NCBI RefSeq assembly: GCF_018919395.1
Contig: NZ_JAHLME010000002.1
Coordinates: 846,182 to 910,181, forward strand
Length of the DNA stretch: 64,000 nt
Origin: Geomonas azotofigens
GTDB taxonomy: Bacteria; Desulfobacterota; Desulfuromonadia; Geobacterales; Geobacteraceae
Reading direction: 5' to 3'
Program-made: the position numbers and the translations under genes
The notes under the pieces: generated by a model
Database searches by the model: none
Told to the model about the DNA's origin: nothing
Seen by the model: only the letters and a program-made list of their open reading frames with translations
Shown here: positions 19,630 through 23,174 of the stretch, in pieces
Layout: each line of letters starts with the position of its first letter
Numbering within the stretch: the first letter of the stretch is position 1

Positions 19630-20715
19630 CTATCTCCCCAGCATGATACCCAGCGCTTCCGCATGCCGCACCATCTCCCCCGAGGGATCGATCAGGTTTA
19701 GGCTGCGCACGGCATCCTCGATGGGGACCGAGGTGATGTGCCGCCCCTTAAGGCAGACCATGTGGCCGAAGGCCCCCGCCTCGACCAGTTCCACCGCTTT
19801 CACCCCGAACCTGCTGCCGACGCAGCGATCGAAGGTGGAGGGAGTGCCGCCGCGCTGCAGGTGCCCGAGCACGGTGACCCGGATGTCCATCTCGAGCACG
19901 CCCCCAAGTTCCCGCGACAGCGCCTCCCCTACCCCGCCCAGCCGTTCCACCACCGATTTGCCGCCGGCGGCCTCCTTGACCACCCGGTTGCCGCCTTTGG
20001 GGTAGGCGCCCTCGGCGACGACCACCACGCTGAAGCGCCGGCCGCGTCTGCAGCGCGCGATGATGGCGTCGCGCACCCGGTCTATGTCGTAGGGGATTTC
20101 CGGGATGAGGATGACGTCGGCGCCGCCGGCGATGCCGGATTCGAGGGCGATCCAGCCGGCGTAGCGCCCCATCACCTCGAGCACCATGACCCGGTGATGG
20201 CTTTCCGCGGTGGAGTGGAGCTTGTCGAGGGCGTCGGTGGCGGTTTCGAGGGCGGTGTTGTAGCCGAAGGTGACGTCGGTTTCCAAAAGGTCATTGTCGA
20301 TGGTCTTGGGGACCCCCACGATGGGGACGCCGCGCCGCATCATCTCCTGGGCGATCTTAAGCGAGCCGTCTCCGCCCACGACGACGAGGGCGTCCAGGCC
20401 GAGCTTGTCGATCCGGGAGCGCACCTCCTCGGAGACGTCCACAAGTTCCACCTTCCCCTCGCGCATGATGGGGAAGGCGAAGGGGTTGCCGCGGTTGGAG
20501 GTGCCGAGGATGGTGCCGCCGCGCGGCAGGATACCGCGCACCTCCTCGAGTCCGAGCGGGCGGCACTTTTCCGGGTGGAGAAAGCCGTCGAAGCCGTCCT
20601 CTATGCCGACCACCTCCCAGCCGCGCCCGACCGCCGCCTTCACCACGCCCCTGATCACCGCGTTCAGCCCCGGGCAGTCCCCTCCTCCGGTCAAAATACC
20701 TATCTTCGTGGTCAT
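19630..20715 (-). CDS. pfkA: 6-phosphofructokinase, mixed-signature group
   Basis: 361 residues, longer than the 320 of E. coli PfkA. It carries GGGDCPGLNAVIRG, the phosphoryl-donor motif GGDGSL (Gly at the ATP/PPi discriminator), and PKTIDND, whose Lys is more usual in PPi enzymes. GYNTALETATDAL and MEVMGR-type LEVMGRYAGWIA follow. The mix suits the group III enzymes, of which some use ATP and others PPi. The start is taken at MTTKIGILTGGG (20715) with GGGGGGGACG before it; the longer frame begins in repeat sequence. Confidence 0.9.
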   Translation of the reverse strand: MTTKIGILTGGGDCPGLNAVIRGVVKAAVGRGWEVVGIEDGFDGFLHPEKCRPLGLEEVRGILPRGGTILGTSNRGNPFAFPIMREGKVELVDVSEEVRSRIDKLGLDALVVVGGDGSLKIAQEMMRRGVPIVGVPKTIDNDLLETDVTFGYNTALETATDALDKLHSTAESHHRVMVLEVMGRYAGWIALESGIAGGADVILIPEIPYDIDRVRDAIIARCRRGRRFSVVVVAEGAYPKGGNRVVKEAAGGKSVVERLGGVGEALSRELGGVLEMDIRVTVLGHLQRGGTPSTFDRCVGSRFGVKAVELVEAGAFGHMVCLKGRHITSVPIEDAVRSLNLIDPSGEMVRHAEALGIMLGR

Positions 20716-20751
20716 CGTCCCCCCCCACAGAAAGTCAAAAACTGGAATTGG

Positions 20752-21000
20752 TAACGCAAAGCCGCAGAGGCGCAAAGCTTTGAAACAGATGAGATCCAAG
20801 GCCAAAAGCTCTAACGCAAAGGCGCAAAGGCGCCAAGACTAAGCAGAAAATCGGGATTGGAACCTAAAGACCAAAAAAAGGAACGTCTTTTTGTTAACGC
20901 AAAGCCGCAAAGGCGCAAAGGACAAAGAAACAACTGGAGGAAAATCCAAAACGTATCGTTTATCTCTTTGCGTCTCCGCGGCCTTGCGCCTTTGCGTTAA
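20752..21000. repeat. Repeat cluster of the ACGCAAAGGCGCAAAG family
   Basis: Three direct copies of a 26-bp unit starting TAACGCAAAG (20752-20777, 20812-20837, 20895-20920) face one inverted copy (20966-21000). This fills the 295 bp between pfkA and the selenoprotein stop. The last direct copy and the inverted copy could form a long hairpin. No gene is present. Confidence 0.85.
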
Positions 21001-21010
21001 AGCCTTGTTT

Positions 21011-21652
21011 TTACGCCTTCAGCGCATCGAGTATGGCCTGCGGCTCCAGGCGGTTCCTGGGATCGCTGTCGGCATAGCTGGTGATGATCCTGCCATCCCG
21101 CCCCACCACGAAGGTGCCGGGCATGGGGAGCTCCCAGGACTCGTCGGCGTTGAACTCGGGAAGGTTGACTCCCAGCTCCCTATAAAGATCCTGGACCCAG
21201 TCCGGGAGCCGGTATACCAACCCGTAGCTGCGCGCCACCGCGTTGCCCAGATCGCTCAGGACCTCGTACTGCAAAAAGTTCTTTAAAAGCGTCGCCTGCG
21301 ACTTGTCCGGACCCTGCGGCGAAATCGCCATCAGCGAGGCGCCCCGCGGCAGTATCTCCGGGAGTATCTTCTGGTATGCCCTCAACTGAAGGCTGCAGTA
21401 GGGTCACCAGATGCCACGGTAAAAGGTGACCACGGCGGGACCGTGCGCGAGCGCGTCGGAAAGCGCGACCGGAATTCCCACGGCGTTGGGAAGGACGAAA
21501 TCGGGAGCGACCTCGCCCTCCTTGGGAACCTTTGCCGTGATCACCTTCTGGGCGATCTCGGCATAGGCACGCTCCAATTGCGCCTTCACCTCCGGCGTCA
21601 GCCCCTTCCCCTGCTCCAGCCGTTCGATCTGTGATCTGAGGTCCTGTTCCAT
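21011..21652 (-). CDS. Selenocysteine-containing AhpC/TSA peroxiredoxin-like protein
   Basis: 213 residues if the in-frame TGA at 21404-21406 is read as selenocysteine (residue 83). Translation across it reads TFYRGIW-U-PYCSLQLRAYQ, so U83 takes the place of the first Cys of a W-C-P-Y-C peroxiredoxin-like motif (UxxC). Both halves are in the same frame and complete a thioredoxin fold with a peroxiredoxin C-terminus (PMPGTFVVGRDGRIITSY). Start MEQDLRSQ at 21652 with GGAGGTGCGCC upstream. The predicted role is thiol-dependent peroxide reduction in the cytoplasm. Standard gene calling would split it in two or mark it broken. Confidence 0.85.
21372..21409 (-). promoter_or_regulatory. SECIS-like stem-loop at the UGA codon
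   Basis: On the minus-strand RNA, 38 nt beginning with the Trp codon before UGA can fold: UGGU/ACCA, internal loop, CCCU/AGGG, internal loop, CUG/CAG, apical loop CAGCCUU. The UGA sits in the lower internal loop. Bacterial SECIS elements begin at the UGA and span about 40 nt, as here. The fold was made by eye. Confidence 0.55.
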
Positions 21653-21791
21653 GGCGCACCTCCGTTTTTTTCCTCGCGACCGCGGCTTTTCGGCCGCCAC
21701 GCCAGCGTTCCATTCTACGCTGATTCGCCAAAACGTCAATGTTTCTCCGCAATTCCACCTGCACGACACAGATGCAGACAATTCTATATTT

Positions 21792-21805
21792 TTGACGCAG
21801 GTCAT
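21792..21805 (+). promoter_or_regulatory. HcpR-like half-palindrome
   Basis: TTGAC-GCAG-GTCAT matches nine of the ten fixed bases of the HcpR consensus TTGAC-N4-GTCAA reported for deltaproteobacteria. It lies 58 bp before the CxxC-hemerythrin operon at 21863, a location fit for a nitrosative-stress activator. The same spacer is shared with the divergent selenoprotein gene. Confidence 0.5.
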
Positions 21806-21862
21806 AAACAATTTGGAGCGGGAGGGGTATGGTCAGATCATCAAGAACACGGGAGGAAGCAG

Positions 21863-22099
21863 ATGGAATTCAAAAACGGCTTGGGCGATACGGCGATTCA
21901 AAATGTGATAGCGAGCAACCCGGAGATCGGGGAGATCCTGAACCGCTACGAGATCGGATGCGTCACCTGCAAGGTCGGCATCTGCCTCCTAAAGGATGTG
22001 GTCTCCATCCACGGTCTCACCCAGGAGCAGGAGGCGGCGGTGGAAAAGGAAATAAATGACTATTTGGACGCAAAAGAGGAAAATCGCAAGGTCGCCTAG
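21863..22099 (+). CDS. Small Cys-motif redox protein (DUF1858/ScdA-N-like)
   Basis: 78 residues. The core IGEILNRYEIGCVTCKVGIC resembles the small helical domain found at the N-terminus of ScdA/Ric and in hybrid-cluster-associated disulfide proteins, with three cysteines in C-x2-C-x4-C. The second half is helical and acidic. AGGAAGCAG precedes the ATG. It is the first of three genes with a hemerythrin and an Fe-S-like protein, suggesting a role in dealing with NO or damaged iron centres (inference). Confidence 0.72.
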   Translation: MEFKNGLGDTAIQNVIASNPEIGEILNRYEIGCVTCKVGICLLKDVVSIHGLTQEQEAAVEKEINDYLDAKEENRKVA

Positions 22100-22163
22100 A
22101 TACATCGAAACGGCACACGCCACAACCAAAACGAAGACAACCATATAAAAGGGAGAAGTGAAC

Positions 22164-22622
22164 ATGGCACATGCAGGATGCGGCTGCCCCGGCAGCATGG
22201 CAAGGGTTATCGAGAGGAACGAGGCAACCGAGCAGGATAACACCGTGAAGGCGGCTTCCGAGCTGAGGCAGTGGCCGGTGCAGCTGCACCTGGTTCCGCC
22301 GACCGCCCCCTGGTTCCAGGACAGCGAGATTCTGATCGCAGCGGACTGCGTGGCCTTCGCCCTGGGGAGCTTCCACAGCGATCTCCTGAAAGGGAAGGCT
22401 CTGGCGATCGCCTGCCCGAAGCTCGACGACACCGCCCCGTACGTGGAGAAACTGGCCCGGATCTTCAGCGAGAACAACGTGAAGAGCATCACCGTCGCCA
22501 TCATGGAAGTCCCCTGCTGCCGCGGTCTCGACATGATGGTGCGCCAGGCGCTGGCGCAGTCCGGCAAGGAGATCCCGCTGGAAACCGCGATCATCGGCAT
22601 CAACGGCGAGAGGAGAAACTAG
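22164..22622 (+). CDS. Fe-S oxidoreductase-like protein
   Basis: 152 residues. It starts MAHAGCGCPG with a CxC pair, followed by LRQWPVQLHLVPPTAPWFQDSEILIAADC and VAFALGSFH. A PCCRG motif near residue 117 and an acidic-aromatic context suggest it binds a metal or cluster; this fold is often found at the C-terminal part of 4Fe-4S proteins, here without the ferredoxin half. GGGAG lies eight bases before ATG 22164. It is in one operon with the genes on both sides. Confidence 0.72.
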   Translation: MAHAGCGCPGSMARVIERNEATEQDNTVKAASELRQWPVQLHLVPPTAPWFQDSEILIAADCVAFALGSFHSDLLKGKALAIACPKLDDTAPYVEKLARIFSENNVKSITVAIMEVPCCRGLDMMVRQALAQSGKEIPLETAIIGINGERRN

Positions 22623-22625
22623 GCC

Positions 22626-23174
22626 ATGAAACAGGACATCACCCAGAGGCTCAAGGACGAGCACCAGTTGATCTTGAGGATGCTGGCCCTTTTGGAAAGA
22701 AACGCGCGGCTCACCGAGGAAGGAAGCTTCAAGGACTACCAGTTCTACCTGGACGGTGTGGACTTCATCAGGAACTACGCCGACCGTTTCCACCACGCCA
22801 AGGAGGAGGATGTCCTGTTCGAAGCGCTGGTTGAGAACGGCATGCCCCGGGACAACAGCCCGGTGGCGGCCATGCTGATGGAGCACGACCTGGGCCGCGC
22901 CTACGTGAAGGCGATGGAAGAGGCGGCGACAAAGGCCTTGAACGGCGAGGCGGGTCAGGAAGAGGCCATCGTCGCCAACGCCAGGGGGTACCTGGATCTC
23001 TTGCGCGAGCATATCGCCAAGGAGGACGACATCCTCTACCCGCTCGCCGAGCGGATCCTGCCCGAGGGCGTGCGTCACGGCATCACCGCCGGGTACCAGA
23101 AGGCGGAGGAGAGGTCCGAGGCGGGGTTCGAGGAGCACTACCGCAAGGTCGTGGAGAAGTACGAGAAAGGCTAA
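22626..23174 (+). CDS. Hemerythrin-domain protein
   Basis: 182 residues. Helical bundle with the di-iron ligands of the HHE family: DEHQLILRML near the start, DRFHHAKEEDVLF, MLMEHDLGRAYV and LREHIAKEDDILYPL. Such cytoplasmic proteins bind O2 or NO, or help repair iron centres. It begins 3 bp after the preceding stop (TAGGCC ATG), so it is co-translated. Last gene of the operon. Confidence 0.9.
   Translation: MKQDITQRLKDEHQLILRMLALLERNARLTEEGSFKDYQFYLDGVDFIRNYADRFHHAKEEDVLFEALVENGMPRDNSPVAAMLMEHDLGRAYVKAMEEAATKALNGEAGQEEAIVANARGYLDLLREHIAKEDDILYPLAERILPEGVRHGITAGYQKAEERSEAGFEEHYRKVVEKYEKG

Follow-up and report, generated by a model that had tools for sequence, protein, structure and literature searches.

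A candidate UxxC selenoprotein gene with a peroxiredoxin-like domain in Geomonas azotofigens

The gene and its surroundings

The window, by which we mean the whole 64,000-nucleotide stretch of DNA analyzed from the soil bacterium Geomonas azotofigens, carries on its minus strand a 213-codon reading whose sole internal in-frame stop is a TGA at codon 83. Window positions of the relevant features are as follows.

21011..21652, minus strand: predicted Sec83 coding sequence of 213 amino acids, UGA read as selenocysteine, stop TAA
21652-21650, minus strand: start codon, ATG
21013-21011, minus strand: stop codon, TAA
21404..21406, minus strand: in-frame TGA, codon 83, predicted Sec (TGA in 48/71 homologues, TGC/TGT in 23/71)
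21395..21397, minus strand: Cys86 codon (TGC), second residue of UxxC, invariant in a 47-row alignment and aligned with the peroxidatic position
21378..21393, minus strand: core SECIS-like hairpin GCCUUC-AGUU-GAGGGC (6 bp, 4-nt loop, G at loop position 2)
21366..21406, minus strand: UGA plus the whole predicted hairpin region, -11.1 kcal/mol
21659..21663, minus strand: GGAGG, a ribosome-binding-like site judged from sequence, six bases ahead of the ATG
21712..21739, minus strand: weak promoter-like sequence TTGACG-16-TAGAAT, 10/12 matches
21863-23174, plus strand: divergent cluster encoding a 78-aa CVTCKVGIC protein, a cysteine-bearing protein of ~152 aa, and a hemerythrin

The initial annotation had placed the gene correctly at 21011-21652; the strand, which it left unstated, is minus. 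It had also described two halves of one protein in a single frame, parted only by the TGA, and a single AhpC-TSA domain (PF00578) indeed runs across both (residues 46-190, E 3.8e-25, 88.7 bits against a gathering score of 26). The active-site motif reads TFYRGIW-U-PYC, and the second Cys of the motif is retained, as had been said, in the form of Cys86 of W-U-P-Y-C. Promoter-like sites number two in the region versus 0.7 in shuffles.

In the divergent cluster, the 78-aa protein matches TIGR03980 (hybrid-cluster-associated redox-disulfide domain) at 24.7 bits, below the cut-off of 44.95. A second in-frame TGA proposed for this neighbor was rejected, the gene being an ordinary 78-aa ORF. A phosphofructokinase gene lies downstream of the window gene on the same strand. 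Within the flanks fetched for 12 named loci, genes for the hemerythrin and the ~152-aa protein are found near the gene in 10, and phosphofructokinase in 9. A role in oxygen or nitrosative stress would fit these neighbors, which are no proof of it. Just past the stop codon of the gene, an intergenic repeat, AACGCAAAGGCGCAAAG, occupies 20753-20998 in direct and inverted copies; five matches with up to two mismatches occur in the window, versus 0.01 expected.

Conservation of the UGA codon and of the hairpin behind it

Codon 83 was compared in 71 homologues and is TGA in 48 and TGC or TGT in the remaining 23; the set is not an unbiased sample, and many of its TGA rows are closely related, so that statistics drawn from it are not independent. 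Left out before counting were one degenerate relative (L100), the loci L012-L022, which repeat whole-genome loci, and weak matches; second gene copies in genomes G431 and G271 are likewise absent from the counts. L100 (G300:C55) has two TGA codons and one TAA in its matched stretch and is perhaps a decaying copy. In the 48 TGA forms the surrounding motif is W-U-P-(Y/F)-C.

The nearest named records are from Geomonas species (Geobacteraceae), with protein identities of up to 92%, and TGA relatives were found throughout the Geobacteraceae and in other families of the phylum. In 48 genomes of the family, strong matches (E up to 2.4e-41) numbered 24, of which 21 carry one TGA and three carry none, and a survey of 395 genomes of the phylum gave 31 matches at E < 1e-25, comprising 28 with one TGA, two with none, and one with two TGA and a TAA. 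Scanning contigs with six peptide patterns yielded 31 homologues, nine TGA and 22 TGC/TGT, a ratio that is biased because one pattern, TFYRGIWC, matches only Cys forms. One TGA form, L023, is placed beyond the phylum, in Myxococcota; the biased scan cannot establish the absence of others.

A tree was made from all 71 sequences, and the alignment used for the predicted structure holds 47 of them. On the tree, the TGA/Cys label changes at least six times, and three of these changes are forced by well-supported branches. The Cys forms L059/L060 and L057 are placed among TGA forms of the window's own genus, and their genomes keep selA; the simplest reading of these placements is that Sec was probably lost to Cys at L057 and at L059/L060. 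With TGA and Cys forms and selA throughout, the genus offers a natural experiment on why some members retain Sec and others abandon it, and with close Sec and Cys versions side by side the cost and benefit of Sec in a UxxC motif become testable.

The loop of the candidate SECIS hairpin begins 16 nt past the UGA. The initial annotation had drawn a stem-loop at this codon, and a stem-loop can be folded there, lies within published limits, and is conserved in TGA forms; as a single sequence it is unremarkable. Starting at the UGA, 41 nt reach a folding energy of -11.1 kcal/mol, which 11 of 200 dinucleotide shuffles match (z -1.83). A search of positions 20700-22000 against Rfam gave no match to a SECIS family up to E 5. 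Because of these two results, the single-sequence hairpin is, by itself, weak evidence for a SECIS.

Comparison across homologues is more informative. Bacterial SECIS limits are given in the legend to Fig. 2 of PMC13188914, and we applied them through our own implementation rather than bSECISearch, with the upper limit on stem length not enforced. The SECIS check proposed by the initial annotation thereby came out in its favor, the window hairpin lying within the limits of that legend (6-bp stem, AGUU loop, spacing 16, -11.1 kcal/mol). By the same implementation, the limits accommodate a hairpin in 42 of 48 TGA forms versus 5 of 23 Cys forms, and six TGA forms fail; after random synonymous recoding, the limits are reached by 19% (TGA forms) and 16% (Cys forms). 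Mean folding z is -1.47 in TGA forms and +0.20 in Cys forms. Fisher's test of the association between hairpin and TGA gives p 8e-8, which is a guide only, the rows being related.

Individual stem pairs were compared in 22 TGA forms, namely L074, L023, and 20 forms from Geobacteraceae. Sixteen of them have U-A at pair 17:24 and the other six have G-C, and the switch is made through CTT to CTG and AGG to CGG, silent on both sides. At pair 16:25, 21 forms have U-G and one has U-A, and two forms have lost the outermost pair, 13:28. In two of the three Cys forms from the genus, pair 15:26 is mismatched, with C facing U; the third, L057, keeps all six stem pairs, two as G-U. Codon usage tells a similar story in 16 same-genus TGA orthologues: codons 85-91 form the longest run of invariant codons (seven, the next being three), nine of the ten codons 85-94 are invariant, and outside codons 84-95 one codon is kept at only 9 of 81 invariant residues. 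Two of these fixed codons, CTT and TTG, are each used for 8.5% of the leucines in ten window genes whose ends were roughly set. By comparison, then, the SECIS is clear, with a pair changed silently on both sides.

Reading of the UGA

The genome holds selA, selB, the tRNA-Sec gene selC, and selD, each above its curated cut-off; the initial annotation had named absence of the machinery as grounds for abandoning selenocysteine, and all four genes are present. The selD gene (L102, G000:C18:49370-50287) has an in-frame TGA of its own, in QAAG-U-AAK, and a strong hairpin of -13.6 kcal/mol follows it. Among 51 genomes holding the window gene in TGA or Cys form, 49 have selA above cut-off, the two others being G004 and G400 (78% and 82% complete); this co-occurrence adds little, because 355 of the 395 phylum genomes have selA.

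Under the standard code, the TGA is of course a stop that splits the ORF, as would be expected of a gene broken by a frameshift-free nonsense mutation or by a sequencing error. Such a stop does not fit the finding that 48 homologues, drawn from many genomes, share the TGA at this codon, nor the RNA-level constraint around it, nor the selection on the downstream half, where dN/dS over codons 97-213 lies at 0.06-0.25 in comparisons with 11 TGA relatives and at 0.19 and 0.22 in those with two Cys forms. With TGA conserved, the stem codons invariant, and dN/dS low downstream, pseudogene and sequencing error were rejected, and a broken gene has next to no probability. Alternatively, the codon might be a genuine stop or a leaky one at which a near-cognate tRNA, for Trp or Cys, inserts its residue, or it might separate two products. 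Termination in general competes with Sec insertion, and this general knowledge is what speaks for a stop; the presence of Cys at the position in the other 23 homologues, the complete Sec machinery, and the tie between hairpin and TGA forms speak against it, and we consider any of these outcomes very improbable.

Selenocysteine rather than a broken gene, as the initial annotation proposed, is thus upheld: because the UGA is conserved, Cys homologues exist, the hairpin is conserved in TGA forms, and selA, selB, selC, and selD are present, codon 83 is almost certainly decoded as Sec, as far as sequence comparison can tell. SelB with Sec-tRNA(Sec) would decode the UGA, guided by the hairpin just 3' of it within the coding region, and the predicted product would be a 213-residue protein of peroxiredoxin/thioredoxin fold bearing Sec-Pro-Tyr-Cys (UxxC). 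Taken as a whole, an intact selenoprotein gene for a Sec83/Cys86 oxidoreductase or thiol-dependent peroxidase is the best explanation, and a highly probable one. Gene callers that read UGA as stop would split or drop the gene, despite its widespread TGA relatives.

Active site and known relatives

The same genome encodes a candidate TxxU Sec-peroxiredoxin, with the motif FTPVU, outside the window (L104, G000:C11:823900-825600, locus bases 637-1137). No clear SECIS was seen there, the 33-47 nt after its TGA folding poorly (-3.6 to -8.3 kcal/mol). L104 and the window protein are of one fold family, align locally, and are both selenoprotein candidates; they differ in that L104 has Sec at the peroxidatic position, whereas the window protein has Sec three residues earlier and Cys86 at that position. 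In the alignment, U83 accordingly falls on the T and C86 on the U of TxxU, and against solved peroxiredoxins U83 falls on the Thr/Ser of TxxC and Cys86 on the peroxidatic Cys. The initial annotation had suggested aligning the protein with AhpC/TSA-like proteins and Sec homologues, and doing so confirms TGA and Cys at one codon and puts Sec on the Thr/Ser position. Its view that Sec replaces the catalytic Cys therefore needs correcting for this protein, the peroxidatic position being that of Cys86, and the stronger peroxide reductase it foresaw is unsupported as stated, Sec being off the peroxidatic position by alignment.

"Peroxiredoxin" does hold at the level of family and fold, given the PF00578 domain and the structure matches. 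The predicted structure (pLDDT 95.4, pTM 0.92) has the classical peroxiredoxin fold, with best matches at Z 21.7 (Bcp4, 3hjp) and 21.4 (AhpE) and identities of 15-26% among the matches listed; ResA appears among the Foldseek matches below Bcp/PrxQ and AhpE peroxiredoxins, and in a second structure comparison all 50 of the 50 matches listed are peroxiredoxins or thiol peroxidases. PrxQ/Bcp, AhpE, and ResA are thus alike in fold, but the peroxiredoxins carry TxxC and ResA carries CxxC where the window protein has UxxC. The classical Thr/Ser-x-x-Cys (or TxxU) motif is lacking, with Sec standing for Thr/Ser and the Cys kept. As modeled, the fold alone favors a peroxiredoxin; the motif appears to favor thiol/disulfide-type chemistry with Sec83 attacking.

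From the motif alignments and the presence of ResA among both fold and profile matches, we lean toward attack by Sec83 in disulfide-type rather than classical peroxidase chemistry. Most likely, Sec83 would attack and Cys86 would resolve it as a selenenylsulfide, which would make the protein a putative thiol/selenol disulfide oxidoreductase or else a peroxidase that works in the same way and depends on thiols. The top fold matches count against disulfide chemistry because they are peroxiredoxins, as does a proposal in PMC3514251, made there without experiment, that cyanobacterial CXXC PRX-like proteins are not protein disulfide oxidoreductases. A Sec-decoded true peroxidase, in which Sec83, or Cys86 aided by Sec83, would reduce peroxides faster than the Cys relatives do, is a putative activity to which we give an appreciable but minor chance: the AhpC-TSA domain, the peroxiredoxins at the top of the fold matches, and the alignment of Cys86 with the peroxidatic Cys argue for it, and it is opposed by the placing of Sec on the Thr/Ser of TxxC, off the peroxidatic position, and by the TxxU Sec-peroxiredoxin already available for that role in the same genome. 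Rather unlikely is an undescribed branch with two centers three residues apart, peroxide reduction at Cys86 being coupled to selenenylsulfide exchange at Sec83; if true, it would combine Sec at the thioredoxin-nucleophile position with Cys at the peroxidatic one.

The window gene is a further member of the already described Prx-like UxxC selenoprotein class. The protein resembles, we presume, CDD PRX_like2 (cd02970). PMC13188914 lists a UxxS selenoprotein family under cd02970. Table 3 of PMC1794560 gives Prx-like UxxC/UxxU thiol:disulfide oxidoreductase selenoproteins of PF00578, Geobacter included, and Prx-like PF00578 selenoproteins are also tabulated in PMC13188914 and PMC9312934. With the tabulated UxxC proteins the window protein shares the AhpC-TSA domain, the UxxC with Sec first in the motif, and occurrence in Geobacteraceae; it also shows the offset of Sec between TXXU and UXXC families that the legend to Fig. 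3 of PMC1914089 describes with Geobacter sequences. Likeness to the published Geobacter Prx-like member WP_010940744.1 is by description only, and by description, too, domain and motif are alike in the UXXC Prx-like family of PMC1088965 and in Prx-like 1 (pfam00578, UxxC; Table 2 of PMC2398784), which, unlike the window protein, comes from marine metagenomes.

In a word search, the main text of the G. bemidjiensis genome paper (PMC2996986) contained neither "selenoprotein" nor "selenocysteine", and our literature search found no paper joining Geomonas and selenoprotein. An NCBIfam search of the window protein gave no family above cut-off; its similarity to the SelL-related redox protein NF040769 is weak (30.9 bits, far under the cut-off of 120). 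Two further relatives in the same genome, L105 and L106, are TlpA/ResA-like and have the ordinary Cys motifs WCPPC and WCPYC.
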